NCBI GenBank assembly: GCA_030849065.1
Contig: JASAON010001652.1
Location: 124,001-188,000 of the forward strand
DNA: 64,000 nt
Source: Jaenimonas drosophilae
Taxonomy: Eukaryota > Euglenozoa > Kinetoplastea > Trypanosomatida > Trypanosomatidae
Reading direction: 5' to 3'
Both the position numbers and the translations under genes were made by a program. Of this stretch, positions 6,001 through 57,243 are shown in pieces. Positions within the stretch are counted from its first letter, which is position 1. Each line of letters begins with the position of its first letter. The notes beneath the pieces are model-generated. The model saw only the letters and a program-made list of their open reading frames with translations, was not told the DNA's origin and did not search any database.

Positions 6001-9000
6001 CAGCCGTGGAGCGCCCGCGCTCCGATTGCCACACTCGCGCCCATTACCCTTGGCCAGAGTCGCTTCGGTGAGCACTACATCAATCTCTTCTGGCACCGCA
6101 TGAATGAAGAGGCAACGCAGGACATGGACCGCAACATTGACCGCTGCCAGGAGCTCAACGAGGAGTTCAAGCACTACGCCCCCGATGATCTTCGCAAGCG
6201 CCAACAGGAGCTCCCGGCTGAGGAGTTCAACAGCCTATTGGAGCGTCTGAAGGAGCTGCGCCGTCTTCGTCGCCAGGTCGCGGCACAGAAGCAGGAGCTG
6301 GCGGACGGCAAGGTGGATCTTATCATTGACCCCAACACTCCCATTCGTGGCTTTCAACTCCGCATCGTGTTGGAGACGGGTGAGTTCACGGAGTACTACC
6401 TGGACAACCTAGAGTCTATTGCTGCCTTCACGGCTACTGGCCTCGCACCAAACCACATGTATGTGTGCTTGCTCTGTGCCGATTACGGCAACAACATTTG
6501 GGGTCAGTGGACAAAGCCTCTCAAGTTCATGACGCAGAATCTCATTCAACTGCAGCTCACCTACACGGGCGAGTCCTTCGTGGATATCGAGTGGCAGCGC
6601 ATGGACAACAAGAAGCTTCCACCCATTGATCGCGACGACACCATCACGAGCGATCCGTTGTCGGAGGAGGAACAAATCTACCAAGTGCGCATCGTTCACG
6701 AGGATATTCACACATCTGAAGAGATTGAGGAGTACCGCGACATGAAGGCGTGCAACGTCTTCCGCATTGACCATTTGGAGCCCGACACCAAGTACACCAT
6801 CGCCGTACGTGAGTGGGATGCCAAGGGTGACTGGGGCTTGTGGTGTGCTCCTCGTACCTGCTGCACCATCCCTGGCCTCTACACCGTCCACGACGATATT
6901 GGTGAGAACTGGGCGGTTGTGTCCTGGGGCCGCAAGGAGAAGCGTGTGGACTATGACAACGACATGCATGTGCTGCAGTTTGGTGTAGAGACCCTCTCCT
7001 ACTACCTGCGGGTGATTGAGATTGCGGAGAAGGAAGAGGAGGAGGATGAGGTTGTGGAGGAGTCCAACGAGGACGAGGAGGCTGGCCACCAGCAGAGCTC
7101 CTTGGAGACGGAGGAGGATCGTCTGGAAGCAACCTTGAAGGATATCGAAGGGTTCTTGGCACCATCGCGCCAGCGTGTTGGCCCGCTCCCGCCCCACGAA
7201 CACCCCAAGGAGTTCGAGGGTGAGGTGCATGGCCTCTACCACCTCGTCAAGCACTTTGAGGATGCTTCGGTGACGACTTTCACCATTGAGAACCTCAAGC
7301 CAGACCATTTCTACTGCGTCCAGGTTCTCTCCGAGACGACGGGCGGGCAGCTGGGTATCTGGAGTGCCGAACAGTTCATGCTCACTACTTCCAAGATCCA
7401 AATCACCACGGAGTGTATCGACGAGCTCTACATCGACATCCAGTGGTGCCGCTATCCACCACGTCAACACCCCAAGCTTCCCGAGGAGTTGGTCTACGTG
7501 GGCAACTACGAGGCGGTGACCTACGAGCTCGACGCCACGGGCCCGAACTACGCCCTAAACACCATTCTCCCTGCTGGAGTGACCTCCTACCACGTGAAGG
7601 ACCTGATGATGGATACGGTCTACAACATGCGTGTGCGTTCCGTCAACACAAAGGAGCAAATCAGTCTGTGGTCAGACGCCCTGTGCGCCGTGACACTGAA
7701 GCCGCTGGTCGTGTGGCCTCTTCAAATCACCGAGAATGCCATTTCGTTGGAGTGGGGACGTGGCGAGCAGCTGCCGGAGAACTACCCGGAAGGGGAAACT
7801 CCCCTGCAGATTGGCAGTCGCACCTCTGCTGGCTACCACCTCAAGGCGTTCCGTGTATGTGAGGAGGGGTTGACGCCCCTCTTTGAGAAGAACTTCAACG
7901 GCGAGGTGACGCAAATGGAGATCACGTCCTTGGCGGCCAACACGGCCTACGTGATGGCTGCACGTGCTTCCAATGATCGCGATGAGTGGGGACTGTGGTC
8001 TGAGGACCGCTGTGTCTACACGATGAAGCTCATTCAAACTGTTGTGGCAGCTGTGGGTGAAGACTTTGTGCGTATCCTCTGGAACCGTGAGGCCCCAGAT
8101 GAAATTCAACCACCCAACACCCCCGACGCCGCTCAGCCCAGCAGCTCGGAGGAGGCCCAGACACCCAGTGAGGCACTGGCACCGCGCCCCAAGAAGAAGC
8201 GCTTCCCGCTGCTCGATCGCCCGGTAGACCAACAACCCATCTATCTCAGTGCGCACTCCACCGTCAAGCACTTTGCCATCTCCGTTCGCCGGGAGGAGGA
8301 GCCCGAAGGCTACACCCTCGAAGCCAAGGCCACCGCCCACAGCTTCACCGTCCCCGCCCTCCGCCCTGATGCGGTGTACTACCTCTCCGTACGCGCGTGC
8401 TACGGCAACGGTGAGTGGGGCCCATGGAGTGAGACGGTCCAGACGGGTACCTACAACCTCCTCGCGGTGGAGCTCAAGGACCTCGGCGAGGACTTCTTTG
8501 CCGCTGCGTGGCAGCGCCAGGCCAACACCGCCAACCTTCATCAGCTTCTTCTGGGCAAGGTGGAGGAGACGATGTGCTATGAGCTCGCCGTGCACGACTT
8601 CACCGACGTCCCATTTGGTGAAGAGGGAGTGGCGGAGCTTGACTCACGTGCCCTGCGAAGCCTCTTCATTCAGCCAAAGCAGCGCAACTGCACTGTGCGC
8701 GATCTCCTCTCCAACCACCGCTACCGCATTTCTGTTCGTCGGTGGTACCAACCGCTGGAGAAGTTCCTCGAGGACTGCCCGCCGGTGAACCCCTCCACCG
8801 ATGACAGCCAAACCCGCGATATGATTGAGCGGACGCATGCGGTGCCCGGCGCATGGAGCGAGCCAGACTTCGCCGTCACCCTCCGCGACATGTACTGCGC
8901 CATGGAGAAGATTGGCGAGGACTTCTTCTGCGTCCGCTGGGAGCGCGACCCCCGCGCACCATCCCTGCCCGTACGCAAGTCCTTTGCCCCTCGTCCCATC

Positions 9001-41587: not shown

Positions 41588-43159
41588 ATGGCAGATGGAA
41601 ATCCCATTCGCGTGTGCGTTCTTGCCTGTTCGTATGAAGGTTCAGATAGTGAGTTGAAGGCCTTTGAAGGGGATCTAATTCAAACTCCGCAGCACTACTT
41701 CACCCCAGATGAAGACAAGGGTTACGTGTTCCACCTTGAGCTCATCAAGAAGGCCACGGCCTATCGCCAGGTGCGTCAACTCGTCATGTCTGGAAAGTAT
41801 GACGTTTTTTACAACCAATGTGATGGGGCAAAGGATGAGGACCGGGCTGGGGTGGAGGTGGTACAGGCACTGGAGGAGTTCCGCGTGCCCTTCACAGGGG
41901 CCATCTCCAAGTACTACGAGCTCTCAAAGCCTGACATGAAGCTGGTGGCACACTACTACGGCATTCCTACCGCACGTTTTGCGGTGGCCAAGGACGGAGA
42001 CGATGTGCAGGATCTTTGTCGTGGCCTTACCTTTCCAGTCATTGTGAAGCACATCTCTGGTTATAGCAGTGTTGGGATGGATCGTAGCTGCAAGGTAGCC
42101 ACCATGCCAGAGTTGGTGGATCGCGTGCGGCGGTTTGTGGAGGAGTACCAGTTTGCCCTCATTGAGGAGTTCATTGTTGGTGATGAGGCCACGATTCTGT
42201 GTTGCGGAGATGCCACACAGCCTGACGGGGTACGTGTGATGCCCCCCGCCACCATTAGCTTTCCCCCTGGTGAAGACTTCAAGCACTTCCAGCTCAAGTG
42301 GGAGTCCTATGAAGGCATGGACTGGGAGTTGGTGAAGAAGGACGACCCGGCACTCGCCCACATGATTGAGATAGCACGCAGGTCCTTCAAGCGCATGATG
42401 GGGGGAGTTGGATATGGGCGAGTGGATGTACGCATTCGTCGATGTCCTCTGCAGGTTATCTTTCTGGAGATCAACCCCAATTGCGGCATCATGTACCCCT
42501 ACGGTCAAGAAGGTTCTGCCGATTGGATCCTTCGGCTCTCGGACTTTAAGCAGAGGGACTTCGCCAAGCTACAGATTCGTGAGGCCATGGATCGTGCCCA
42601 CAGAAACCGGCCACTCTTTGCGCGTCAGTATGACCCCATCCGCGGCTACCACCTTCGTGCCGTGGAGGCCATCCCGAGCGGCTCGATCATCTTCAATGAC
42701 GAGTGCAAACCTGTTCGGCTCTGCACGAAGCCGTTTGCTCAGAAAACATTCACCCCCGAGGATTACGATGACTTCGTCAAAAATGCCTGGCCGATTGGTT
42801 CCGATAGCCACTACTACGCCCTCTGGGATCGAGATCCTGCCCAGTGGCGTGCATTCAACCACAGTTGCTCGCCCAACATGGCCTTTGACTTCTGCCGCTC
42901 TCTGAATGTGCGCGCGCTTCGTGATATTGAACTTGGTGAGGAGCTCACGATGGACTACCGTCAGTTCATGGATGGAACGATGCCTCCATTCCAGTGCCAC
43001 TGCGGCTGCACCAACTGCGAGAAGTTAGTTGTTCCTGGTTCCTTGACGGGTACACCCCTTCACGAAAGTTGCCAGACTTCGATTGATTTACATGATCATC
43101 AAGAACCCATCGCCGTGAATCGCAACATTCTCGCTTCTGAAGGGGAGGACTTGGCGTAG
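41588..43159 (+). CDS. ATP-grasp (D-Ala-D-Ala ligase-like)-SET methyltransferase fusion
   Basis: The protein has 523 residues. Residues 1-325 resemble the ATP-grasp fold of D-alanine-D-alanine ligase: a substrate-side N-terminal part (DVFYNQCDG), a central FPVIVKHISGYSSVGM segment with the ATP-binding Lys and flexible loop, ALIEEFIVGDEATI, and the metal-binding FLEINPNCGI. Residues about 345-485 form a SET methyltransferase: RGYHLRAVEAI at the cofactor-binding start, FNHSCSPNMAF (the NHSCxPN motif), ELGEELTMDY, and a post-SET CHCGCTNC zinc triad (CxCx4C). All key SET residues are present. SET enzymes methylate lysines using S-adenosylmethionine; ATP-grasp enzymes join a carboxylate to an amine. 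How both act together is unknown. No bacterial-type cell-wall gene is nearby. Confidence 0.85.
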   Translation: MADGNPIRVCVLACSYEGSDSELKAFEGDLIQTPQHYFTPDEDKGYVFHLELIKKATAYRQVRQLVMSGKYDVFYNQCDGAKDEDRAGVEVVQALEEFRVPFTGAISKYYELSKPDMKLVAHYYGIPTARFAVAKDGDDVQDLCRGLTFPVIVKHISGYSSVGMDRSCKVATMPELVDRVRRFVEEYQFALIEEFIVGDEATILCCGDATQPDGVRVMPPATISFPPGEDFKHFQLKWESYEGMDWELVKKDDPALAHMIEIARRSFKRMMGGVGYGRVDVRIRRCPLQVIFLEINPNCGIMYPYGQEGSADWILRLSDFKQRDFAKLQIREAMDRAHRNRPLFARQYDPIRGYHLRAVEAIPSGSIIFNDECKPVRLCTKPFAQKTFTPEDYDDFVKNAWPIGSDSHYYALWDRDPAQWRAFNHSCSPNMAFDFCRSLNVRALRDIELGEELTMDYRQFMDGTMPPFQCHCGCTNCEKLVVPGSLTGTPLHESCQTSIDLHDHQEPIAVNRNILASEGEDLA

Positions 43160-43468
43160 GCTCTCGTGCTTGTGTCATGGCGGTCACCGCTCATACAGAT
43201 ACAGCCCCACCCCCTCACCCAACCACATCACTTTACTCCATTTTGATAGAGCCACTGTGTACCCAACGACGACCGGGGTGGTATCATCAGTCATTCCATA
43301 GAAAACGTTCCGGAGTAGGCAACGAAGAACACTGTTCTTTCAATACGATCTGCCAAATTTATGGCATTCAATGGTTTTGCCGATCGTACTCTTCATCACA
43401 TACTTCTTCACTTGTCTTCCACTTTGCCTGTTCTGTTTTGTTGTTGTTCCTCTAGACCAACTGTAGGG
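43160..43468. other. Intergenic spacer, 309 bp
   Basis: It ends in a T/C-rich tract and CTCTAG with AG at 43454-43455, a good acceptor for the next gene. Nothing else was recognised. Confidence 0.55.
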
Positions 43469-44770
43469 ATGCCTCCCTCTCGTAATGGCCTCAACATGGG
43501 TGAAGCCTTGACCCGTTACAAGCGCATCATTGACCTGGAGGCTCAGCTCGTCTCGGTGATTGGCAATGGAGCCTTTGGCAGAGTGTTCCTGGCACGACCC
43601 ATTCGTCGTCTCCTTCGCATGAGTAAGTTTGACTACCCTGACACCTTCGTCATCAAGATCATTCACCGCGAGCATTGCACCGCCTCTGTCGTAAACTTCA
43701 TTCATTGTGAGATTGAAACAATTCAGAAGCTACACCATCCCAACATCATTCGCTATATTGGGTCGTGGATGGAGGCAGGGAAGGGAAAGTTCCTTGGCTG
43801 CTATTGTATCGCGATGGATTACTGCGGTGGGGGAGACATGAAAACACTCGTCAAGGACTACAAAGCCCGGAATAAGTTTGTGCCAAGAGACTTGGCAGTT
43901 CGGCTGATGCTGCATGTGTTCTCTGCGCTTAACTTCATTCATTCCAACCGTATCATTCACCGAGATATAAAACCCGACAATGTCTTTCTGGCCACGGGAA
44001 GAAATGGAATCATTGAAGGGGCCGTCGTTGGAGATTATGGCTTGGCACGGCCGCTGAAGGAATCGATGCAGATGGTTGCTACACGAGTTGGGACGCCCTA
44101 CTACTTCTCCCCAGAGATTGCGGCTGGGGAGCCCTACTCCTGCCACACCGACATCTTCTCCGCAGGGGTCATGTTTTTTGAAGTCCTGGCAAAGGAGAAG
44201 CCCTTTGGCGTGAACTGCCGCACTGAGCGCGACACACACCGGGAGATTCTGTACAAGAACCCCCTTCCCCGGTTTCGTGAGCTCTGCGGGGATTACTACC
44301 ATGGAATCGAGGATATCCTGGTCGGATGCCTTCGCAAGCACGAGGCACACCGTCTCTCCGCCTATGACATCTTGACGAACTTCTGCTCACGCTTGACCTC
44401 GGAGATGCCCATGACGCCCATCAGAACAACCCCGGTCATCGCCAAGGGCTTTTGTGGAGGGCTCACGGTGGAAGAAGTGAATGCCGAGCTTACACAGAAG
44501 GAGCGACCTCAGCCCGCAGATGGGAGCCTGGACATGCTGGCTGATGTTGTTCGGCAGTCCTTCTCCGCCAGCACCGACGATGAACTGTTGCAGGCACTTA
44601 ATAATGACCTTGAGTGTTTTCTACTGCTGAAAGTTCTTCAAGTTTCACGCCGTGGGTATCCTTCACTGGAGAGAGCAACGCAAGTGGTGCTCCAACACCT
44701 ACAGCCCAGGCATCGCAAGACCTACTCGTTTGCCTACACGCTGCTTCAACGTCCCTTTTCTGACGAGTGA
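43469..44770 (+). CDS. NEK-like Ser/Thr protein kinase
   Basis: The protein has 433 residues from ATG 43469, which lies 13 bases after a probable splice acceptor (43454-43455); the upstream frame start at 43361 falls before it and is rejected. The kinase domain spans about 25-300: GNGAFGRVFL loop, VIKIIHREH lysine, HRDIKPDNVFL catalytic loop, DYG in place of DFG, then GTPYYFSPE. All catalytic residues are present. The text (CEIETIQKLHHPNIIRYIG, YCGGGDMKTLV) is closest to the NEK group, many of which act at basal bodies and flagella in protists. A helical C-terminal tail of about 130 residues follows, of unknown partner. Confidence 0.85.
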   Translation: MPPSRNGLNMGEALTRYKRIIDLEAQLVSVIGNGAFGRVFLARPIRRLLRMSKFDYPDTFVIKIIHREHCTASVVNFIHCEIETIQKLHHPNIIRYIGSWMEAGKGKFLGCYCIAMDYCGGGDMKTLVKDYKARNKFVPRDLAVRLMLHVFSALNFIHSNRIIHRDIKPDNVFLATGRNGIIEGAVVGDYGLARPLKESMQMVATRVGTPYYFSPEIAAGEPYSCHTDIFSAGVMFFEVLAKEKPFGVNCRTERDTHREILYKNPLPRFRELCGDYYHGIEDILVGCLRKHEAHRLSAYDILTNFCSRLTSEMPMTPIRTTPVIAKGFCGGLTVEEVNAELTQKERPQPADGSLDMLADVVRQSFSASTDDELLQALNNDLECFLLLKVLQVSRRGYPSLERATQVVLQHLQPRHRKTYSFAYTLLQRPFSDE

Positions 44771-44918
44771 CGAACGCAAACGCAGCCACACAGATTTTGG
44801 GTTGGATTTTTTTTTCTTCTGCTACCTCAGGTTGACCAAACGACACATTCAATCTCAGTTGACGAATCCGTCTCTACTGAAGGAGTAAACACGTTGTTGT
44901 TGCTGTTTCCCAAACATA

Positions 44919-44971
44919 CCCCTCCCCTCCCCTCCCCTCCCCCCACTCTCTCTCCATCTCTCTCATCACAG
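44919..44971 (+). promoter_or_regulatory. C-tract polypyrimidine and trans-splice acceptor
   Basis: Four CCCC units and one CCCCCC, each separated by T (44919-44944), run into a CT repeat and CACAG with AG at 44970-44971. This is 13 bases before the ATG at 44984. The complementary strand could fold as a G-quadruplex. Confidence 0.55.
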
Positions 44972-44983
44972 ATCATAGTAAAC

Positions 44984-45433
44984 ATGTCCGCATTGAAATT
45001 AGCCACACGGCAGCTCTACCGCCAAGCTTCTCTGCAGCCACGTCTGGCCCTTCCGGCTGGCCGCACCATCTCGCTCGAAGAAGGTCGTCAGCTAGCGAAG
45101 TTAGTGGCGGAGGAAGATGAGCGCATTCACCGCGTAACAACGGAGCTTCTCAACGCCACAGCTGACTCCCCCGTCATTGTAGAAGAGAAAGTCTCCAAGA
45201 AGATTGCCCTTCTTCGTCAGCAGCAACAAAAGGATGAAAATGTTCGGGCTGCGGTTCAGTACGCCAAGCGTCAGGCTGCCAAGCACGCTAGCACACTTAC
45301 CAAGAAGGACGCCGACCATGTCACGGGGATTGCCCAGCAACTCCTGCACCGCAAGGCACCAGGAAATGCAACGGTGATGAAACACCGTCTTGAGCGTGCC
45401 GTACCAAAGCAGTCAAAATCCAAGAAGAAGTGA
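44984..45433 (+). CDS. Small basic protein, probable mitochondrial
   Basis: The protein has 149 residues from ATG 44984, 13 bases after the acceptor. The N-terminus (ALKLATRQLYRQASLQPRLA) is basic and amphipathic, without acidic residues, which fits a mitochondrial presequence. The remainder is helical, rich in Gln, Lys and Ala, and ends in a Lys/Ser tail (SKSKKK). No family is recognised. It could be a mitochondrial ribosome or assembly subunit, a class with many lineage-specific small members in kinetoplastids. Confidence 0.65.
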   Translation: MSALKLATRQLYRQASLQPRLALPAGRTISLEEGRQLAKLVAEEDERIHRVTTELLNATADSPVIVEEKVSKKIALLRQQQQKDENVRAAVQYAKRQAAKHASTLTKKDADHVTGIAQQLLHRKAPGNATVMKHRLERAVPKQSKSKKK

Positions 45434-45746: not shown

Positions 45747-48203
45747 ATGGCACCAAGTTGTTTGGCTGTGGTGGCACTCTTCTCCACCCTTTCTCTCTCC
45801 ATGTTCAATTGGCCGACCTTTTCCTATGAATACTCCTCCGCCCACGCCCATAACCTGTCCTGCACGGAGGTCTTCCTCAATACCACTCATTCCTCTGTGA
45901 ATGCGTCGAAGTGGTACATGAACTCTGCCCCAACCGGACGTGTGGCCTGCTCCTCTCAACTAGACTGGCATACCTACAAGGGGGTTGCTTACTTTGAGAT
46001 TGAGGTGGATGCCGCCAACCTCATCCTACCAACAATGATGGACTGCAACGACTGCACAACGATGATGATTGACACAGACCACAAGCACTGTGAGGTGAAG
46101 ACACGTGTTACCTCATTCCATGTCGTGCCACCCAATGGGATGGTGGAGATCATGATTCAGCAATTCCGATCCTTCATTTCCAGCCGCATCAACAATGAGA
46201 TTTGTGGGAACGGAGAGCCGTCGTTGGAAGAGGCGTTGCTGAACCACACAGATGCCGCATGGTTTGCGGTTCCCGATTTGCTTCCTGGAGCTCTTCCGCT
46301 CGCATCCTCCCCTCTCTTTCGCTCCATTAACCACATTATTGGTGTGCTGCCTCAAGAGGTTGGTGGCCTGCACATATCTTCGTCATGGGTTGGTCAATCA
46401 ACCATGCGGCTCACCGCCCATGTGGTGGAGCCCCTTCCCGTCATGATATACTCAGACACTGAAGATGACTTGATGACGTTGGTGGGCCCGCCGAGCTGGC
46501 TGCCACGTGCACTCCAGCCGCTCTACCAACACGTACAACAGGAGCTGATGGAACCCTTTGTGGCAGGTAACCTCTCCAACTGGGCGATTGAGGGCCACAT
46601 TCCTGTGGATGCATCTCTGTCAATGGACGTCTCCTTCAAGAACCTCAGCTGCGACGTGTTCTCCTACGCGTGCGCAGTAGACCTTGTGGGCGGGATTGCC
46701 ATATCCAATCTGCGCGTGGACGGTGCAGGAGATGTTGGGCGGCTCCTGACCCTTCACGCTGTTCCAGCCATTCAAAATCGAAGCAACGAGCTCCTGCAGG
46801 AGCTTCTCAACACCTCGGATGATGCAACACGCTATACCATCCCAACGGCTGAGAGGGCAGTGGTCAACTCTCGCCCATGCATCCCGATGCTTGCACTTCT
46901 TGCAGTGTTTGTCCTTAGCGCTGGTGCGTATGCAACGTGGCGCAACATCAAACGGCAGGCAACCTCAGAAGCAGTCAGGGTTGCAGGGGCTGCAACGGAA
47001 GACGAGGATGATGATGATGATGCACAGCCCGTTTCTGTGAAACGAATCCTTGTAGAAGACGCCCTTCTCACGTTGGGAGTCCTGGTGTGTGGGCTGGGTT
47101 TCTGCTGGTCCAACACCACAACGGGCTCAACGGTAGTTGTGGGTGGCGAGATGGAGTTGTACGCCTTCTCCTTGAAGCACACAGTGTCAGACCTCTGGCA
47201 ATCAGGACTGAAGCCCCTCTCCGTCTGTGTTCTTCTCTTTTCCGGTGTATACCCCTACATCAAACTACTCAGTCTCCTCTACTTCACTCTGATTCGGCAG
47301 GACCCACGCAATCCTGTACTCGAGTTCGTGGACTACTTTGGAAAGTTCTCCTTCATTGACAGCTTCGTGATGATGGTGATGGTGGCTGGCCTCGAGGTTC
47401 GCGGTATCGCGGATGTACGGATGGACCCCTCCTTCTTCATCTTTCTTGGGTCCACGATTGGCTCAATTGTCATGGGAAACTACGCCATGTACGGCTGGCG
47501 CAGAGGAACGTCTCTTGCCCCACCTCATCACAGTGCTCCATCGATACCCACCACGACGGAAGAACACAACGAGGTGGCTGATGGCCACGTGGCCACCACC
47601 ACGGAAGAAGAAGAGACTGCTGGCGATGCGGCAGATCAAGACGATGAAGAAGCCACTCTTCTTCCTCCCTCACAGGAGGAGGCTCCACGACGAGCCACCT
47701 TCTCACTACCTACACTTCGGACGTTGTCCGCGTTGCTCATTGCGTCATGCACATTGGTGGCATGGATCTGGCCAAGCTTGACCTTCGTTGTGTCTGGCAG
47801 TGCAACCCTCATTGTTCCCACCCGTCAATCCTACTCCCTCTGGGGTCTTGCCACGCGCGTGGGTACCTGGGGTGTTGTGCTTCTCTGCACGACAGTGTTC
47901 GTGGCTCCCGTGCTGTATGCCCTCACCTACCCCCGTATACCATTACTGGCATCGTGGTGCGCTGCCGATGTGTTCGTGGTAGCCTGTGTGGCGGGACTCC
48001 TTCAGCTCAGCGACTTCATTGGCTTCATTCTTGGAGATCAGATGCAGGATGTTTTCACAGCTGAAGCGGTTCTCCTGCCACCCCTCGCTGGACTGGTTGC
48101 CGCAGCCGCAGCTGTGTGGGCACTCATGCTGTTCCGATTCCAAGGGCATGGCATGCAAAAGATGCATCATCACCACATCGATGTCAGCGATCCTCTCCCT
48201 TGA
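45747..48203 (+). CDS. PqiA-like membrane protein with ectodomain, paralogue 1
   Basis: The protein has 818 residues and is the most divergent of the four. A signal peptide covers about 1-20. The ectodomain (about 20-370) has many Cys and N-glycosylation sequons. A membrane helix at about 378-396 leads to the first PqiA-like unit (about 430-590). Its clearest text is TVSDLWQSGLKPLS followed by a Val-Tyr-Pro-Tyr-Ile-Lys helix, then GKFSFIDSFVMM; these match the 'LWxSGxxPL ... P-x-x-K' and 'G+(W/F)SxxDxFV' elements of bacterial PqiA. After an acidic/Ser linker (about 590-650), a second unit (about 650-800) keeps WCAADVFVVACVAGL. Bacterial PqiA works with MCE proteins in lipid transport; the zinc-ribbon cysteines of PqiA are not seen. 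Function here is unknown; a lipid-handling role is inferred. Confidence 0.75.
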   Translation: MAPSCLAVVALFSTLSLSMFNWPTFSYEYSSAHAHNLSCTEVFLNTTHSSVNASKWYMNSAPTGRVACSSQLDWHTYKGVAYFEIEVDAANLILPTMMDCNDCTTMMIDTDHKHCEVKTRVTSFHVVPPNGMVEIMIQQFRSFISSRINNEICGNGEPSLEEALLNHTDAAWFAVPDLLPGALPLASSPLFRSINHIIGVLPQEVGGLHISSSWVGQSTMRLTAHVVEPLPVMIYSDTEDDLMTLVGPPSWLPRALQPLYQHVQQELMEPFVAGNLSNWAIEGHIPVDASLSMDVSFKNLSCDVFSYACAVDLVGGIAISNLRVDGAGDVGRLLTLHAVPAIQNRSNELLQELLNTSDDATRYTIPTAERAVVNSRPCIPMLALLAVFVLSAGAYATWRNIKRQATSEAVRVAGAATEDEDDDDDAQPVSVKRILVEDALLTLGVLVCGLGFCWSNTTTGSTVVVGGEMELYAFSLKHTVSDLWQSGLKPLSVCVLLFSGVYPYIKLLSLLYFTLIRQDPRNPVLEFVDYFGKFSFIDSFVMMVMVAGLEVRGIADVRMDPSFFIFLGSTIGSIVMGNYAMYGWRRGTSLAPPHHSAPSIPTTTEEHNEVADGHVATTTEEEETAGDAADQDDEEATLLPPSQEEAPRRATFSLPTLRTLSALLIASCTLVAWIWPSLTFVVSGSATLIVPTRQSYSLWGLATRVGTWGVVLLCTTVFVAPVLYALTYPRIPLLASWCAADVFVVACVAGLLQLSDFIGFILGDQMQDVFTAEAVLLPPLAGLVAAAAAVWALMLFRFQGHGMQKMHHHHIDVSDPLP

Positions 48204-48533
48204 GCAAGAGGCACAAGCCTCATTCTTGCTCTCTCTGTCCTTCTCCCTCAGGAGGTGATGGATCTTTCCCCCCCCCCCCATATGTGCGTGCACCCCCCTG
48301 CTTCAACCACCATCATCAACAACGACAATCATTGTGCTCTGCATCGATCTTGATTATCCTCGCGATTGCTCGTGTACATCTCCGACAACATCTTCTCTCC
48401 TTGTTTCCTTCTTTGGTTTGTGTGTGCTCATCACAGCTCTTACATCTCACACGAAGCAATCAAAAGATCTTCCCTCTACGCCACACTCATCCACTTCCAC
48501 CTCCAGTACAATCTTCCGCAGCAACGCTCGACG
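48204..48533. other. Intergenic spacer, 330 bp
   Basis: It contains a run of C residues at 48267-48279 and a pyrimidine tract at 48390-48420 leading to CACAG (AG at 48435-48436), a likely acceptor for paralogue 2. Confidence 0.55.
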
Positions 48534-50894
48534 ATGGCCGCGGCGGCACCTTTTGTGTCGTTCCTTCTCAGCCTTCTCTTCTCCCAGGTCTATGAGCTGA
48601 ACCTGATGGATGGGCTGGCCCTGGCTGGCCCACTTGCAGCGCCTGACTCTTCCACGGCACTGACGAACCTCAACTTCCATCGCGTGAACCTCTCCAAGTC
48701 ATTTGTGGTTTCTTCCTACGGGCCACTCTTTCAACTTGACCTTGGCACTGACTGCATCGTCGCGACAGGAGTGGCCGATATCCATGCAGGCGAAACCATC
48801 ATCCCAAATGCGTCGTTGGATATGTCCGTGTGTGGTGCTCTCCACGTAGGCACCACACCACCAGCCGCGGCATTGAGTATCCGGGCCTCGACGACACCCA
48901 CTGCCCAAGACCCATCCATTACCTGCACCCTTCAAGCCACCATGGACACCATGGGCTCTGCCACACCCATCAATCTATGCCCAATGGTGCTTTCGTTGCT
49001 CACCGACACAAGTACCCTTCCCGCACCCGTGGCACCTCCCCCACTATACCCCGAGGCCTCACCCATTTCCGCCTCAAGGCTGCTCCGCGCTGCTATGCAC
49101 ATCATTCCCCAGTTAGAGCGCGCCTTTCCTCTCCGCATCTCCTTGTTGCCACTCTCCATGACAGCCATTCGTCTTCAAGTCAGCACGCTGGAACTGGTGT
49201 CCATGCAGCAATCGGGCCAAGGCTCCGCCATCACCAACCTTCTGCAGATGATGCTCAAGGCGGTGGCGGTGAACGGTCCCATTCACTCGACGGAACAACA
49301 CGAAGTTGCCATCCCGCAAGGCACAACGATGCACGTGGATCTCCTTCTGACCAACCTCACATGCAATTCAGCTGGCTATATCTGCTCATTTCCTGTGCAG
49401 GGGGGACTTCAACTGGCCAACTTCGTCTTGGAGGGTGAGCAGCAACCACTGGCTGTGCCCTTTGCGAAGCTGGGCCCGAGCTTGGCCTCGATGCTCCTGT
49501 CAGGGATGCTGCTTCCTAAGATTTGTACCATGAAGGGTGATCGCTGCAGCGTTGAGATGGTCTACGACACAACCGTCTCGGCACCACCAACTTGGCTGAT
49601 GGTCTTCTTCCCACTACTCGCCGCCGTGCTCATTCCCCTGCCTGTCTTGTACAACCTCCGCCGCCACAAACGCCAGCCCGTACTCAGCACCAAAGGCAAG
49701 CCCGTCTCCATGTGGCGCCTCGGTGTGGAGGACGCACTTCTTGGAACCTTGATTCTCGCCACCTGCGGCTGCTTCCTCTTTGCCGACACCACCTCGGTTG
49801 CTCGAATTATCATTGGAGAAGACATGACGAGCTACGTCTTCAACTTGAAGGGAACGGTGCGGCATCTGTGGCAGGCAGGGATGGTGCCACTCTCCATCGT
49901 CATGATCGTCTTCTGTGGCGTCTATCCCTTCATGAAGATGGCGTGCGTGGTGTACTTCTCGATGCTCCGCTATCAGCAATACTCGAGGATTCTTCGTGCG
50001 GTGGACGTGTTTGGCAAGTTCTCCTTCATCGTCACAATGGTGCTGATTGTGTGTGCGGCAGGTCTGAGTGTTCCAGGAGCGGTGTCTTTGGAAGTGTTGC
50101 CATCCTTTTATGTGTTCTTGGTGGCAACAATCTGCTTGGTCATCGTGGGAAACTATGGTATCTACGCCTACCGCTTTGGCACGAACGTTCGTCCGGCTGC
50201 CATGTCATACGCAACTTGTGTTGGCACATCGGAGAAGGAGAGCACCCACCCAGATGACTTGGTGGGGCAGGACTCGTTGGAGGTGGAAGCGGCGGAGGAA
50301 GACGTCAAGCGCCTGGATGGCACGGAGCCTGTGTCAGAGGCCAATGCACTGCCAGCAACACTCAACGCACTTCTTCAGGGAGTGTGGTGGAAGGTTGCAC
50401 TGCCGTCATCAACCATCATCTTTGCCCTCACCATCCCTGCCTTCGTCGTCACCTCCATCTCCTTTGAGGTCTCTGGTGCTGCACAGCTCCTCACTGGACC
50501 AACACGCCATTACAGCCTCTTCCAACTGGCCACTTTCACCAATTCGATTTGCGCAGCAGTTGCGATTTGCACGGTGATCATCGCACCCACTGTGATGGCC
50601 ATGTTCTACGAAGTCACCATCTTCATTGGGTCCTGGACAGCAGCGGATGTCATTCTCTTTGCCTGTGTGGCGGGTCTGCTGCAGCTCAACGACTACGTGG
50701 AACTCGCCATCGGGGAAGGATTGAGCCCCATCTTCCACGTGAAGGCACATCTTCACTGGCCTCTTATTCTGCTTTTGCTGGCAGCTATCTTGACGTGGGC
50801 CCTGCAGGCGTGCCATTACTTTGACGTACGAGACTTCATCGCACGTCGCCGCCGCCTTCGTGGAGAGCGGAACAATCGTGAGCCTGTTCCTTGA
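48534..50894 (+). CDS. PqiA-like membrane protein with ectodomain, paralogue 2
   Basis: The protein has 786 residues from ATG 48534, about 98 bases after a probable acceptor. The signal peptide is at about 1-20 (PFVSFLLSLLFSQVYELNL). The ectodomain runs to about 350 and a membrane helix to about 375. The first PqiA-like unit (about 393-550) shows TVRHLWQAGMVPLSIVMIVF and GKFSFIVTMVL, where the usual Asp is replaced by Thr. A variable acidic linker follows. The second unit (about 613-760) keeps GSWTAADVILFACVAGLLQL. The tail is short and Arg-rich. The architecture is identical to that of its neighbours, but the protein is clearly divergent from paralogues 3 and 4 over the whole length, so it is an older duplication. 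Confidence 0.75.
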   Translation: MAAAAPFVSFLLSLLFSQVYELNLMDGLALAGPLAAPDSSTALTNLNFHRVNLSKSFVVSSYGPLFQLDLGTDCIVATGVADIHAGETIIPNASLDMSVCGALHVGTTPPAAALSIRASTTPTAQDPSITCTLQATMDTMGSATPINLCPMVLSLLTDTSTLPAPVAPPPLYPEASPISASRLLRAAMHIIPQLERAFPLRISLLPLSMTAIRLQVSTLELVSMQQSGQGSAITNLLQMMLKAVAVNGPIHSTEQHEVAIPQGTTMHVDLLLTNLTCNSAGYICSFPVQGGLQLANFVLEGEQQPLAVPFAKLGPSLASMLLSGMLLPKICTMKGDRCSVEMVYDTTVSAPPTWLMVFFPLLAAVLIPLPVLYNLRRHKRQPVLSTKGKPVSMWRLGVEDALLGTLILATCGCFLFADTTSVARIIIGEDMTSYVFNLKGTVRHLWQAGMVPLSIVMIVFCGVYPFMKMACVVYFSMLRYQQYSRILRAVDVFGKFSFIVTMVLIVCAAGLSVPGAVSLEVLPSFYVFLVATICLVIVGNYGIYAYRFGTNVRPAAMSYATCVGTSEKESTHPDDLVGQDSLEVEAAEEDVKRLDGTEPVSEANALPATLNALLQGVWWKVALPSSTIIFALTIPAFVVTSISFEVSGAAQLLTGPTRHYSLFQLATFTNSICAAVAICTVIIAPTVMAMFYEVTIFIGSWTAADVILFACVAGLLQLNDYVELAIGEGLSPIFHVKAHLHWPLILLLLAAILTWALQACHYFDVRDFIARRRRLRGERNNREPVP

Positions 50895-51695
50895 GGTACT
50901 ACTCCGATTGTCATCGCCATCCTTCTTTTCTCTCTCTCCCCCTCACCCTTGCTTTTTCTTTCTGGCATTGTGTGCCCACGTTCGTGCGTATGCCACTTTT
51001 GTGCTCTTTCTTTTTGACTTTGCGTTCATACCGTCCGTTCTTCCATCCTCGACGAACCTTGGTTTTTTTCTTTTCTATCATCATCAGCTCCTACAAGTGA
51101 CTGACAACATACACAACGCACCTCCGCACTAGAATGGCTGGTGAATACTGCCGTGCATTGTTTGTCGGTGAACGAAGAAAGACACATGTTGTCTTCTTCC
51201 AGGTGATGCTGCTTTGTAGCTGACGCCCGCCTTCCGATATCTTTCATTGGCATCATTTCTCTTTTTTTTGTGATTTATATATGTGTTTATTGTGTGTATC
51301 TTCGAGTAGGTGGAACCTCTACGTTGTACTACAACGAGAGTAGTACTCTCTCGCTGGAACTTTTTTTCCTCAGCCGCCACCGATTCTGTGGCTGCCAATA
51401 TAGGTACTTCCTCTGGTGGGTCATTCATGAAGTGAGTGTGTGTGAGCACACGTAGCCGTGGTTGATGGTATATATATCGCTCTCTCTATTGAAGTGTGCA
51501 ACACATCCATGGCAGTCCTCCTGCTTATTGTACCGACTAATGAGCATCAACCAACAAACTAACCTTGCCTCTCCGTCTTTTTTTCATGTTTTCTGTCTGA
51601 TGTTGGTGCATCGAAGAGACCCATTAATCAATCATTACACAATCAATACCGATCATTATCACCCTCAACAAGAAAAAGTGGCCGAACCTGTTGTT
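50895..51695. other. Intergenic spacer, 801 bp
   Basis: It is T/C-rich with poly-T runs near 51006, 51061 and 51263, and a TATATATAT stretch at 51470-51478. It contains no credible gene. Confidence 0.55.
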
Positions 51696-54068
51696 ATGTC
51701 ATCAGACATGTTCAAGTGCTTCGCACTCTTCCTTACCCTTCTCTTCAGCGATGACTACACCCTCAATGTGCCGGACGGGTGGACGTTGCCGCTGACGGAA
51801 CTGCCTCCTGCCCCAGCACCCTTTGCACAAGTCACTGAGCTGCGCATCTACTCCATTGGCCTGCCAACGGGCCTCGATGTGAAGGTGGACAGCAAAGGCA
51901 TCTACATGAACCAAACCGATTGCTTGACGATCCTCCTCGACTTGCCTGCAGTGGACTGGAATGACGTCCACATCGACGTGTGTGGCGGTGTGATGTACGA
52001 GGTTGTTCCCGATGCACCGCAAACATGCGGTTACCACCCCATGAGATTGACTGACTGCGATGCACAACTCAAGATCAGCTTCGGACCAGTCAACGTACCA
52101 TTCAACTTGTGCGCCACTATCCCGAACGCAACGGGAGATGTACCCAAACAACAAAGCTCGTTGCCGAGTGCACTTCCCCTCCGGCAAACTCTTGCCATCC
52201 CAGAGCGCATCAATCAGGTTCCGCCAATTCTGCGTGCGTTGCAGCGCATTGCCGCACGAGCGAGCGATGTGCTTCCTGTTTCGATACAAGTAACCATTCC
52301 CACGAGAGACGCCATCCACTTCCAACTCACCACCCGTGAAACCGTCAACGCGGACACCAACACCAACATTAACGCCAGTGCACTTCCGTCGATCCCATAC
52401 TTGAACTTCATCTACACCGCTTTCAAACAGCTCAGCAATGAAAGCCTCCTCATCTCTGTGATGGGGCTCATGGATCACGTGCACTTGAACAAGGAACCGA
52501 TGGTGGGAGTGGCCAACCTTCTCGCCAACCTTCCCCCAGGCATACAACTATCTTTTGACCTCCTCATCCCAGATTTTCAGTGCAGCAGGGATGGCTACAC
52601 CTGTACAATATCCCGCCATGAGCCCGTGGTTATTGACGGGGTTCTCGTGAAGGGATTCAACACGCTGGACGCGATGGCCAACTCCTTCGCCCATCTTGTG
52701 TCCTCCACTGCAATGACCATCATTAACCGCGCCATAATCCCTGCCTACTGCCAAAGAACCAGTGATGACGCTTCGTGTTCTTTTGTTATACCCCACCACT
52801 CCCCACGTCACTCCCCACCCCTGTGGCTGCTCATTCTCCTCCCCCTGGCATCCGTTGTATGCACCGTGTTGATTGTGGCCTTCAATCTCCGTCGTCACCG
52901 TCGTACGCCGCTCGTGAACCACGACGGAAGCCGCGTCTCAGAGTGGCGCATCATTGTGGAAGACTCCGCGCTGTGCATGGTCATCTTTGGCTGCATGGCG
53001 TGCTTCATCACCTCCAACATCACCTCTGCAGCCACAGTGGTCATTGGGGGTGAAGTGACGTCCTACGCATTCGGCCTCATCAACACCGTTTCCGACCTGT
53101 GGAAGGCAGGTCTGCAGCCCCTCTCCTTCTTTGTGATGGTCTTCAGCGGCATCTACCCCTACTTCAAGCTGCTCTGCATGCTGCTGTACACGGTGCTGCT
53201 GTACCGACCGGACTCCATGGTACTCAAGATCATCGACGTCATTGGCAAGTTCTCCTTCCTGGACATGTTTGTGATGCTCATCTTTGTTTCCGGACTGGAG
53301 ATTCCTGGCGTTGCGGATGTGAACATCCTGGCCTCCTTCTATCTCTTCATGGGAGCCACCACCTTCTCCATCGCATGCGGCAACTACGCTACCAACCTCT
53401 GGCGCCGCGGCACCTCCGTTCGCTCGCGGGTGGCACGTGATGTATCATCGAGTGACACCAATCCTCTAAGCCCCGATGTCTCCATCAAGTCCACCGACTC
53501 CAAACGTGAGACGGACGCTGAAGCTATTGTGTTAGCAGACCGGAACATCTTCATGCGCTTTTTGCACCGCGTGTGGTGGTTGGTCTCTATTCCAGCCTTT
53601 GTACTGGTGTTGTGCCTAACAATCCCCTGCATTGCCGCCACAACCCTCTCCTACCGTGTGGGCGGAGTGGCCTCCATCACCGCCCCACCTTCAGACTTCA
53701 CTTTGGTTTCGCTGGCCAGTGCCGCAAATGTAACGCTGCTTCTTCTTGTGGTCATCACCGTCATTCTGGCACCCTTACTGTTTGCCATCTTCACCGATGA
53801 AACAGCCTTCATTGGGGCGTGGACAGCAGCCGATGTGATGCTCCTTGCCTGCGTTGCCGGACTGTTGCAGCTCAACCAGTTTGTTCAGTTCATTCTTGGC
53901 GGTGACTACGATGCGCTTTACAGCGCTGATGCCCAGCTTCACTGGCCGCTGATTCCACTCTTGATCGCTGCATTGCTGAGTTGGGCATTGCAGATCCTTC
54001 ATTTGTGTGGGGTGCGACCAAGATGGGAACCACGCTTGAAGCGATGGCTAACGGCGTGTAGTGTATAA
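51696..54068 (+). CDS. PqiA-like membrane protein with ectodomain, paralogue 3
   Basis: The protein has 790 residues from ATG 51696; ATG 51708 is equally possible and would give 786 residues, the length of paralogues 2 and 4. The signal peptide is MFKCFALFLTLLFSDDY. The ectodomain (about 25-370) is rich in sequons and Cys. A membrane helix lies at about 372-395. The first PqiA-like unit (about 417-575) has TVSDLWKAGLQPLSFFVMVF and GKFSFLDMFVMLIF. A linker with Asp/Ser/Thr follows, then a second unit (about 618-770) with GAWTAADVMLLACVAGLLQL. The block 52862-53422 is almost identical to paralogue 4, unlike the flanks. A membrane lipid-handling role is inferred from bacterial PqiA. Confidence 0.77.
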   Translation: MSSDMFKCFALFLTLLFSDDYTLNVPDGWTLPLTELPPAPAPFAQVTELRIYSIGLPTGLDVKVDSKGIYMNQTDCLTILLDLPAVDWNDVHIDVCGGVMYEVVPDAPQTCGYHPMRLTDCDAQLKISFGPVNVPFNLCATIPNATGDVPKQQSSLPSALPLRQTLAIPERINQVPPILRALQRIAARASDVLPVSIQVTIPTRDAIHFQLTTRETVNADTNTNINASALPSIPYLNFIYTAFKQLSNESLLISVMGLMDHVHLNKEPMVGVANLLANLPPGIQLSFDLLIPDFQCSRDGYTCTISRHEPVVIDGVLVKGFNTLDAMANSFAHLVSSTAMTIINRAIIPAYCQRTSDDASCSFVIPHHSPRHSPPLWLLILLPLASVVCTVLIVAFNLRRHRRTPLVNHDGSRVSEWRIIVEDSALCMVIFGCMACFITSNITSAATVVIGGEVTSYAFGLINTVSDLWKAGLQPLSFFVMVFSGIYPYFKLLCMLLYTVLLYRPDSMVLKIIDVIGKFSFLDMFVMLIFVSGLEIPGVADVNILASFYLFMGATTFSIACGNYATNLWRRGTSVRSRVARDVSSSDTNPLSPDVSIKSTDSKRETDAEAIVLADRNIFMRFLHRVWWLVSIPAFVLVLCLTIPCIAATTLSYRVGGVASITAPPSDFTLVSLASAANVTLLLLVVITVILAPLLFAIFTDETAFIGAWTAADVMLLACVAGLLQLNQFVQFILGGDYDALYSADAQLHWPLIPLLIAALLSWALQILHLCGVRPRWEPRLKRWLTACSV
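52862..53422 (+). repeat. Gene-conversion tract, copy A
   Basis: This 561-bp stretch matches 56022-56582 with only two mismatches, both adjacent at 53393-53394 (CA versus GC). The flanks on both sides differ strongly. The tract begins in the membrane helix and ends exactly where the variable linker starts. Confidence 0.9.
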
Positions 54069-54882
54069 GAGGTGAGCACAGCGTGAGCCGGCTACGAACG
54101 TGTAGTAACTGCCCTGTGTTCATGTCCTTCTTCCTCTCTCTACCCCCCTCAAAAAATTATTTTCATTTTCCAACAGTTGTGTTTCTCCCATCAATGTAGC
54201 GTGTTCTTCTTTACTTTTTTTTTTGCGACCACTTTCGCGAATGTGCGGCTGTGTGTCCGGCTTCTTTTTACTGGTGTGTTGTTATGTGCTTCTTTTGTGT
54301 GTTTTTTTTTCGAATATATTGCTAAGGACAGCTGCATTGCATCTCACCCCTTTAACGGCACAACTGTATTTGGTGGTGGTGTGTGCATGTGATTTTTTTC
54401 TTTTCAATGTTCGGTTTTTTGGGTGACTGAAGTCATTGGGCGTCGCAACTGTTGTTTCTTTGTTTATTTTACTGAAAAAAAAAGGTCCACTTTCTTTTGT
54501 ACTTTTGTGATGTCTTATCTTCTTCAGATCTTTATTGAGACCTATGTTTTACCTACGTCAAAACAAAACAAGTACACTGTTGGTGTGTTGGTATCATCTG
54601 CGATACGCAACATTATCCTGAGTCTGACTTTCATCTGCCATCACTCATGTATATTTCCTCACGCCACTTGCATCTTACTCTTACTCTCATAGTTCCATTC
54701 ATCATCAACATTCCTATAAACCAGTCATTACTCCATCTTTGACGTCATCACTACTACACAACAAGCCCGCGATATCACCCGTCCCTGCTACGCGTGTTTG
54801 ATACTTTTTTATTTGCTTTTTCCCCCCACTCTATACCCATACACCACCAAACACACGCCTTCTTCTTCGGTCACGGGGCACC
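54069..54882. other. Intergenic spacer, 814 bp
   Basis: It is T-rich, with poly-T at 54216-54225, 54302-54312 and 54391-54398 and an A-run at 54475-54483. Frames of up to 89 codons are AT-rich and lack coding character. No gene is called. Confidence 0.55.
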
Positions 54883-57243
54883 ATGATCCAGCAATGTTTT
54901 ACCCTGCTGCTGGCGCTCTTGTTTGCGGATGTATACACGGTGGATATGAATAAGTGGGTGATCGCCAAAGGCCCCATCAGTCTTCCCAACAACGCCGGAA
55001 CCTTGAAGGATGTCACCGTGAAAACCTTGACCCTCCCAGAGGAACTCCATGGCAACCTCAACCAACACTCCTTCTCCGTGGATTTGGGGAGCAAGTGTCT
55101 TGTCATATCTGGAAGTGCCAAGATGAAGCTCATCACCCTCCCTGCAACCGTTCAGCTCTGTGGTGCCGCAACATTTGATCGCGTGTGTATATCCGACTCA
55201 GACACCTGCCACAGCCAATACTACGAGGTCAGCTCCACAACGCCATGTACCCTGCGTTCATCTGTTGGCATGGGGGTGATTCAAATGTCCCAGGACCTCT
55301 GCACGATGCTCCCGGAGGTGGTGGTCAACTACACAGAAATGGTTCCCATCTACCCGGCATTTGAGGAAGGAAGCTCACCAGTGACCGATTTCCGTTTGTT
55401 CAAGGCCATTGACCAAATCTCTCGAGGAATCCAAAACCTTCCGGTTGACGTTGCTGTTTCCTTCCCCTCCGAGACAGCCGTGCGCTTTAACATAACGGTA
55501 CTCCAGAAAATCCAGATTGATTTGAATAAAACCACCGCCAACATGTTCAACGGCGATGCATTCCCCTCCCTCATATCCAACGCCCTCACCACCCTCAGTG
55601 GGCGCTCCCCGGTCCTTGCCAATGTGATGGACGCCTTCAGTGGATTCACCGTGAAGAATGGCCCTGCTGCAGGCTCCATGATGCTGGATGCCTTCATTCC
55701 AGCAGGCCTCAGCATTCAATTCGACCTGCTCTTCAGTGACTTCCAGTGCAACCCAAGTGGATTCAGGTGTACCTTCCCCGAGGAGGATGGATTCCGTGTG
55801 GGCAACATGGCCATCAAGGGTCTCTCCGACTTTGACATGTTTTTTTCCCACTTCTCGTCCTCCGTTGAAGATGCCATTCAGGCCGCCCTTGTCACCAATG
55901 TATTCCCACTCATTTGCAGCAACAACACCGGTCGATGCACCTTCTTCATTCCCAGCACAGCACCAACCATCGTTCCGCCAATTTGGCTCATGGTTGTGAT
56001 GCCTGTGGTGGCCATTACCGCCACCGTGTTGATTGTGGCCTTCAATCTCCGTCGTCACCGTCGTACGCCGCTCGTGAACCACGACGGAAGCCGCGTCTCA
56101 GAGTGGCGCATCATTGTGGAAGACTCCGCGCTGTGCATGGTCATCTTTGGCTGCATGGCGTGCTTCATCACCTCCAACATCACCTCTGCAGCCACAGTGG
56201 TCATTGGGGGTGAAGTGACGTCCTACGCATTCGGCCTCATCAACACCGTTTCCGACCTGTGGAAGGCAGGTCTGCAGCCCCTCTCCTTCTTTGTGATGGT
56301 CTTCAGCGGCATCTACCCCTACTTCAAGCTGCTCTGCATGCTGCTGTACACGGTGCTGCTGTACCGACCGGACTCCATGGTACTCAAGATCATCGACGTC
56401 ATTGGCAAGTTCTCCTTCCTGGACATGTTTGTGATGCTCATCTTTGTTTCCGGACTGGAGATTCCTGGCGTTGCGGATGTGAACATCCTGGCCTCCTTCT
56501 ATCTCTTCATGGGAGCCACCACCTTCTCCATCGCATGCGGCAACTACGCTACGCACCTCTGGCGCCGCGGCACCTCCGTTCGGGAACTCCCTCCCGCAGC
56601 CCTCCAACGCAGCGGCAGCTCCTCAAGCAATGCACTCTCCAGCCCCAGTCATGCACCGTGCAGCCCTCAGCACGGCCGCCAGATGACCGAATCCGATGTG
56701 GACCCGATGTCTCCCTTGAAGATTGGCGGATCTGCGGTGGCGGAACAAGGAAACATCTTCATGCGCTTTCTGCACCGGGTGTGGTGGTTGGTCTCTATCC
56801 CAGCCTTCTTGTTGGTGCTGGGCCTCACCCTCCCCTGCATCGCCACCACAACTCTCTCCTACCGTGTGGGCGGAGTGGCCTCCATCATCGCCCCACCTTC
56901 AGATTTTACCCTCATTACCCTCTCCAACGCCCCCGGCATCCCCTCGTTGCTCTTGGGTCTCGTCACCGTCATTGCTGCTCCCTTGTTGTGTTCTCTCTTC
57001 TACGAAGAAACGGCCTTCATTGGGGCGTGGACGGCTGGTGATGTGATGCTCCTTGCCTGCATTGCCGGACTGTTGCAACTCAACCAGTTTGTTCAGTTCA
57101 TTCTTGGCGGTGACTTTGATGCCGTTTACAACGCACATGCCCAGCTTCACTGGCCGCTGATTCCACTCTTGATCGCGTCGCTGGTGATTTGGGCACTGCA
57201 GATTGCCTACTTCATTGGGGTACGCAAACGTTGGTTCAAGTAG
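54883..57243 (+). CDS. PqiA-like membrane protein with ectodomain, paralogue 4
   Basis: The protein has 786 residues. The signal peptide is MIQQCFTLLLALLFADVY. The ectodomain (about 20-362) has Cys and sequons and an alternating hydrophobic pattern at about 180-215 that suggests long beta strands. A membrane helix lies at about 365-387. The first PqiA-like unit (about 408-563) carries TVSDLWKAGLQPLS and GKFSFLDMFVML. The Ser/Pro-rich linker (about 565-620) is unrelated to that of paralogue 3. The second unit (about 623-770) has GAWTAGDVMLLACIAGLLQL. It ends in a short Arg/Lys tail (VRKRWFK). Close identity to paralogue 3 in one block only marks recent conversion. Confidence 0.77.
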   Translation: MIQQCFTLLLALLFADVYTVDMNKWVIAKGPISLPNNAGTLKDVTVKTLTLPEELHGNLNQHSFSVDLGSKCLVISGSAKMKLITLPATVQLCGAATFDRVCISDSDTCHSQYYEVSSTTPCTLRSSVGMGVIQMSQDLCTMLPEVVVNYTEMVPIYPAFEEGSSPVTDFRLFKAIDQISRGIQNLPVDVAVSFPSETAVRFNITVLQKIQIDLNKTTANMFNGDAFPSLISNALTTLSGRSPVLANVMDAFSGFTVKNGPAAGSMMLDAFIPAGLSIQFDLLFSDFQCNPSGFRCTFPEEDGFRVGNMAIKGLSDFDMFFSHFSSSVEDAIQAALVTNVFPLICSNNTGRCTFFIPSTAPTIVPPIWLMVVMPVVAITATVLIVAFNLRRHRRTPLVNHDGSRVSEWRIIVEDSALCMVIFGCMACFITSNITSAATVVIGGEVTSYAFGLINTVSDLWKAGLQPLSFFVMVFSGIYPYFKLLCMLLYTVLLYRPDSMVLKIIDVIGKFSFLDMFVMLIFVSGLEIPGVADVNILASFYLFMGATTFSIACGNYATHLWRRGTSVRELPPAALQRSGSSSSNALSSPSHAPCSPQHGRQMTESDVDPMSPLKIGGSAVAEQGNIFMRFLHRVWWLVSIPAFLLVLGLTLPCIATTTLSYRVGGVASIIAPPSDFTLITLSNAPGIPSLLLGLVTVIAAPLLCSLFYEETAFIGAWTAGDVMLLACIAGLLQLNQFVQFILGGDFDAVYNAHAQLHWPLIPLLIASLVIWALQIAYFIGVRKRWFK
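56022..56582 (+). repeat. Gene-conversion tract, copy B
   Basis: Partner of 52862-53422, at a constant offset of 3160 bp with no indels. It covers most of the first PqiA-like unit, from the membrane helix to the start of the linker. Confidence 0.9.

Follow-up and report, generated by a model that had tools for sequence, protein, structure and literature searches.

A tandem array of four LetA/PqiA-type membrane proteins with large secreted-side ectodomains in the trypanosomatid Jaenimonas drosophilae

LetA (YebS) and PqiA are bacterial inner-membrane proteins that consist of two four-helix units and are paired with the MCE proteins LetB and PqiB. The mechanism by which they move lipids seems unsettled, since a passage of a 2024 paper (PMC10897342) leaves three options for PqiA, should it be a transporter: passive action, the help of an unknown ATPase, or use of the proton motive force. 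PqiA domains are also on record in eukaryotes. Section 2.1 of a review (Wong and Levine, 2017; PMC5507252) mentions CETP/BPI proteins of protists and amoebae that carry a PqiA domain at the C-terminus. In a Leishmania adleri table (PMC5335649) the gene LaHO174_262450 is annotated as 'Paraquat-inducible protein-A (PqiA)' and stands third in the order kinase, hypothetical, PqiA; these genes sit in a copy-number-variable segment for which one PqiA gene is listed. Here we compare with these systems an array of four PqiA-type genes found in a 64,000-nucleotide stretch of Jaenimonas drosophilae DNA (assembly GCA_030849065.1, contig JASAON010001652.1, positions 124,001 to 188,000 of the forward strand), which is referred to below as the window and numbered from its first letter.

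The original prediction, made from the letters of the window, was that four consecutive genes share one plan: a signal peptide, an ectodomain of about 340 residues and two PqiA-like four-helix units. Indeed, four intact open reading frames (ORFs) lie head to tail on the forward strand between 45747 and 57243 (Table 1), with no internal stops and no apparent introns, and their ectodomains are 331-353 residues long. The 18.8 Mb assembly (370 contigs) yielded these four PqiA loci. Hydropathy profiles of genes 1, 2 and 4 begin with a hydrophobic N-terminus (the N-terminal peak of gene 3 stays below the cut-off used, 1.5); in all four, a linking helix and two helix clusters follow, the clusters being read as four helices each. 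When the topology plan of the gene 4 model is transferred to genes 1-3 by alignment, 22 of the 23 sequons are predicted to be lumenal and none cytosolic, the remaining one falling inside a predicted helix, close to its edge. In the same predicted topology, lysine and arginine make up 70 of 488 residues in the cytosolic loops of the membrane part vs 15 of 418 in the lumenal ones. The length of the ectodomains and the predicted lumenal sequons support a large secreted-side domain, and the N-terminal hydrophobic stretch together with the sequons places the proteins in the secretory pathway. Pyrimidine runs upstream of genes 1-4 (27, 24, 18 and 17 nucleotides; control mean 14.5, maximum 24) were not used.

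All four genes score above the 23.8-bit cut-off of the PF04403 hidden Markov model (HMM), with unit 1 as the best stretch in every case. The best solved match of a full-length AlphaFold2 (AF2) model, itself poor, is E. coli LetA, which spans both units and was ranked first by two structure-comparison programs. Together with at least 22 bacterial relatives of unit 1, these results bear out the proposed relation to bacterial PqiA, and we conclude from the computations that unit 1 is homologous to PqiA. Unit 2 is covered by the LetA structural alignment (from the poor model) and has a short common motif (E 0.021), while its HMM support is weak. Sequence searches of the PDB returned a single chance match for gene 1 (E 0.95), and none up to E 10 for the ectodomain and membrane-part profiles. 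As to the motifs first noticed, GKFSF is present in all four genes; TVSDLW is absent from gene 2, which has TVRHLW instead. Unit 1 carries S/C-x3-P-x2-K in 4/4 genes and unit 2 carries P-x2-K in none. The serine and lysine of the motif belong to what we take to be a polar site required for LetA function.

The four proteins resemble LetA and PqiA in the predicted two four-helix units, predicted exoplasmic-side loops, the G-[KR]-x-S motif and the top structural match, and differ from them in the extra N-terminal ectodomain with its linking helix and in the absence of zinc ribbons. Whereas E. coli PqiA and LetA have CxxC pairs, cysteine lists of the cytosolic stretches contain no such spacing; its only occurrences are in the ectodomain of gene 1 and, for genes 3 and 4, within the first helix of unit 1.

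The bacterial relatives come from a second genome-contig scan, in which at least 22 related loci, all titled bacterial, were 25-31% identical to unit 1 of gene 1; they are a sample retrieved by likeness to that unit (594 stretches listed). Inspection of ORFs among the matches listed gave ten single-unit proteins without CxxC pairs, 11 proteins with zinc-ribbon-like CxxC pairs, and L024 (L024:2743-3735), a 330-residue protein of a Pseudomonadales metagenome-assembled genome with two PqiA units, a single CxxC near the start and no inter-unit zinc ribbon. An HMM of the ten ribbon-free sequences scored unit 1 of genes 1-4 at 62, 35, 55 and 55 bits, vs 34, 17, 24 and 24 bits for an HMM of the ribbon class (the 11 plus two E. 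coli sequences). By sequence, the highest scores for unit 1 come from small bacterial PqiA proteins that lack zinc ribbons (e.g. L014, L015 and L022) and, unlike the present proteins, have no ectodomain; L024 likewise has none and in addition retains its one CxxC. The position of P-x2-K also differs from that in LetA. In the two-unit ribbon proteins compared (seven sampled plus E. coli LetA and PqiA) it sits in the second unit in 9/9 and in the first in 0/9, while L024 has it in the first unit only; the site in L027 and in three of the single-unit proteins was read directly from the ORFs. Since P-x2-K is found in unit 1 here, the units are ordered as in L024 and opposite to LetA. Unit 2 could be placed with neither the N-type nor the C-type bacterial unit (scores of -1.9 to 15.4 bits). 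Searches with gene 4, with a full-length alignment and with an ectodomain alignment found no homologues among 5.8 billion proteins, and no relatives came from viral contigs (95 pattern matches), phages (no match) or a first genome-contig scan (79 pattern matches).

The original prediction had also drawn a link to MCE lipid-transport proteins, and this does not carry over. The MlaD/MCE domain (PF02470) has no match at E <= 1 in the assembly, which may be incomplete, while 4/14 control genomes match, and the best scores of unit 1 are with the ribbon-free bacterial proteins. PqiA units with no adjoining MCE gene seem to occur in bacteria too, because none of the ten neighbours scanned at six bacterial loci, a part of the neighbours listed, is an MCE protein (two each at the single-unit loci L014, L015, L022 and L029, one each at the single-unit locus L017 and at L024). 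One neighbour of L015 is an ABC ATPase.

We favour, as rather probable, the reading that these proteins are MCE-free LetA-type lipid exchangers with a tethered lipid-binding domain. Each gene would encode a membrane protein of the secretory pathway. Its signal peptide would be followed by an ectodomain that lies in the lumen or on the outside, carries sequons and probably has a TULIP (BPI/CETP-like) fold; a single linking helix would join this domain to a LetA/PqiA-type permease of two units, giving nine predicted membrane helices and a cytosolic C-terminus. The permease would shift lipid between the bilayer and the exoplasmic face, and the tethered ectodomain would take or hand over lipid in the aqueous space, in place of the MCE tunnel (LetB/PqiB), so that one protein might import or export lipid by itself. 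Lipid movement, its direction, the ligand and the location of the four proteins are what we infer, the plasma membrane, flagellar pocket or endolysosome being the likely sites. A more specific proposal, which we make tentatively and hold somewhat less likely than its opposite, is that of an MCE-free, LetA-type kinetoplastid lipid transporter in which a covalently tethered TULIP shuttle has replaced the tunnel. Its four paralogues in this species, with different lipid-binding ectodomains and a core partly homogenised by gene conversion, would form a small family, each member exchanging other lipids of the outside or the lumen. A stress system, also suggested at the outset, finds no support; the idea rests solely on the name 'paraquat-inducible'.

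Low-confidence models of the ectodomain and of the full-length protein indicate a TULIP fold; both AF2 jobs were limited to four sequences because the homologue searches returned none, and a TULIP fold is therefore suggested, not proven. Sequence comparisons gave it no proof. TULIP families of Pfam, including LBP_BPI_CETP, did not match the four ectodomains at E up to 10, a match to LBP_BPI_CETP being sufficient but not required for TULIP membership. In hhalign comparison of the ectodomain with BPI/LBP/CETP, 2/150 shuffles were equally good, which is no sequence proof, and the best of 12 full pairwise shuffle comparisons (gene 4 against CETP, z 3.1) involved a non-equivalent region. C-terminal shuffles (12 comparisons) gave z 4.4 for gene 1 against LBP (1/500 as good), 3.4 for gene 4 against LBP (4/500) and 3.2 for gene 3 against CETP (7/500), with the other nine between -1.4 and 0.9; they are not counted as evidence, because the stretches were hand-picked after a by-eye likeness to the BPI/LBP helix-B region. 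PF01273 and PF02886 have no match in the assembly, and likewise none in the control genomes.

The dependence of the TULIP call on poor models leaves room for an ectodomain of another fold acting as a receptor or adhesin for a non-lipid ligand, above a membrane part that is a tetraspanin/claudin-like scaffold and not a transporter. The ectodomain of gene 4 has just 19-23% identity with those of genes 1-3, as might be seen in surface receptors, and the structural matches of unit 1 beyond LetA and TTYH3 are mostly claudins and TARPs, i.e. scaffold or auxiliary proteins. Against this, LetA is the top match in both programs, the S/C-x3-P-x2-K motif common to bacterial PqiA units is retained, and the similar architecture in the cited section of the review has CETP/BPI lipid-binding domains (PMC5507252); we consider this alternative unlikely, if worth keeping in mind. 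Still less probable, in our judgement, is a different sheet-around-helix domain, hotdog-like or of a new fold, with a lipid-modifying or lipid-sensing role. It would fit the many hotdog thioesterases/FabZ in the Foldseek list for the ectodomain model and the lack of any consistent structural match to the N-terminal ~140 residues of that model; the TULIP indication of the same models speaks for the tethered lipid exchanger.

Genes 3 and 4 share an exactly identical tract of 531 nucleotides, which has abrupt edges and runs from the linking helix almost to where unit 1 ends. Outside it the two proteins differ strongly: in blocks of 50 residues the ectodomains are 14-36% identical and the stretch after unit 1 56-80%. 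Unless the assembly is wrong, the tract appears to be the mark of recent gene conversion. Its abrupt edges and the 370 contigs of the assembly would also suit an artefact, in which some copies or the identity itself come from collapsed or mis-joined repeats, which we regard as very improbable given four distinct ectodomains, four intact genes and the strong differences between genes 3 and 4 outside the tract. As judged from the sequences, the permease is more alike among the paralogues than the ectodomains, partly through gene conversion. Such a pattern is expected of ectodomains that differ in the lipids or partners they serve.

Table 1. Coordinates in the window of the array, its parts and the adjoining genes
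Feature	Position	Strand	Remarks
PqiA-type gene 1	45747..48203	+	ORF 818 aa; PF04403 48.9 bits
Gene 1 ectodomain	45825..46871	+	8 sequons
Gene 1 PqiA unit 1	47028..47516	+	4 helices, S-x3-P-x2-K, GKFSF
Gene 1 PqiA-like unit 2	47706..48131	+	4 helices, without P-x2-K; limits approximate
PqiA-type gene 2	48534..50894	+	786 aa from ATG at 48534; PF04403 24.1 bits, just over cut-off
Gene 2 ectodomain	48591..49583	+	
Gene 2 PqiA unit 1	49701..50189	+	
Gene 2 PqiA-like unit 2	50394..50828	+	limits approximate
PqiA-type gene 3	51696..54068	+	790 aa from ATG at 51696, frame open further upstream; PF04403 41.3 bits
Gene 3 ectodomain	51756..52814	+	
Identical tract, copy in gene 3	52862..53392	+	531 nt, exactly identical to 56022-56552
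Gene 3 PqiA unit 1	52932..53420	+	
Gene 3 PqiA-like unit 2	53580..54020	+	limits approximate
PqiA-type gene 4	54883..57243	+	786 aa; PF04403 44.6 bits
Gene 4 ectodomain	54934..55974	+	most TULIP-like matches from its C-terminal part
Identical tract, copy in gene 4	56022..56552	+	531 nt, exactly identical to 52862-53392
Gene 4 PqiA unit 1	56092..56580	+	
Gene 4 PqiA-like unit 2	56764..57216	+	limits approximate
Protein kinase gene beside array	43361..44770	+	PF00069 E 2.6e-44; same named neighbour in L. adleri
Small ORF	44894..45433	+	179 aa from TTG; position of L. adleri 'conserved hypothetical'

A eukaryotic origin, claimed from the sequence, is confirmed by KMP-11 (PF03037; two matches, E 3.4e-54) in the same assembly, and KMP-11 together with the named gene order as in L. 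adleri identifies the host as a kinetoplastid. The order of kinase, small ORF and PqiA equals that in the L. adleri table, as compared by gene names only; the small ORF has no Pfam match within the 148-residue stretch scanned. A spliced-leader exon was not found in the assembly with two patterns; this could be because the array was collapsed or because the exon has diverged. Elsewhere in the window, a 523-residue ORF (41588-43159, forward strand) combines an ATP-grasp domain of the D-Ala-D-Ala ligase C-terminal type (PF07478) with a SET domain (PF00856), a pairing that looks unusual, and a 3893-residue open frame runs from the window edge (1-11682, forward strand) and by eye resembles many beta-domain repeats in succession.

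The proposal of a new eukaryotic system was not upheld as regards novelty. The architecture is probably not new, because the review names CETP/BPI-PqiA proteins and the L. adleri table lists PqiA. Like the former, as described in the cited section (PMC5507252), the present proteins have a secreted-side, here putative, lipid-binding domain followed by the PqiA membrane part; by the same description they differ in the length of the ectodomain (331-353 residues vs full-length homologues of more than 450), in its not being recognised by Pfam and in the four-copy array. With LaHO174_262450 they share, by annotation, the PqiA name and neighbour order, one gene being listed there vs four here. Beyond these two sources, we recognised by title and abstract no study of such eukaryotic proteins, most subscription papers being outside the coverage. 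New here are the four-gene array, the diverged ectodomains and the tract shared by genes 3 and 4. The array suggests a bacterial-type gene working in the eukaryotic secretory pathway and bears on lipid uptake or sorting in kinetoplastids. A natural MCE-free version with a fused acceptor domain would allow the permease and the lipid carrier to be tested in a single protein.
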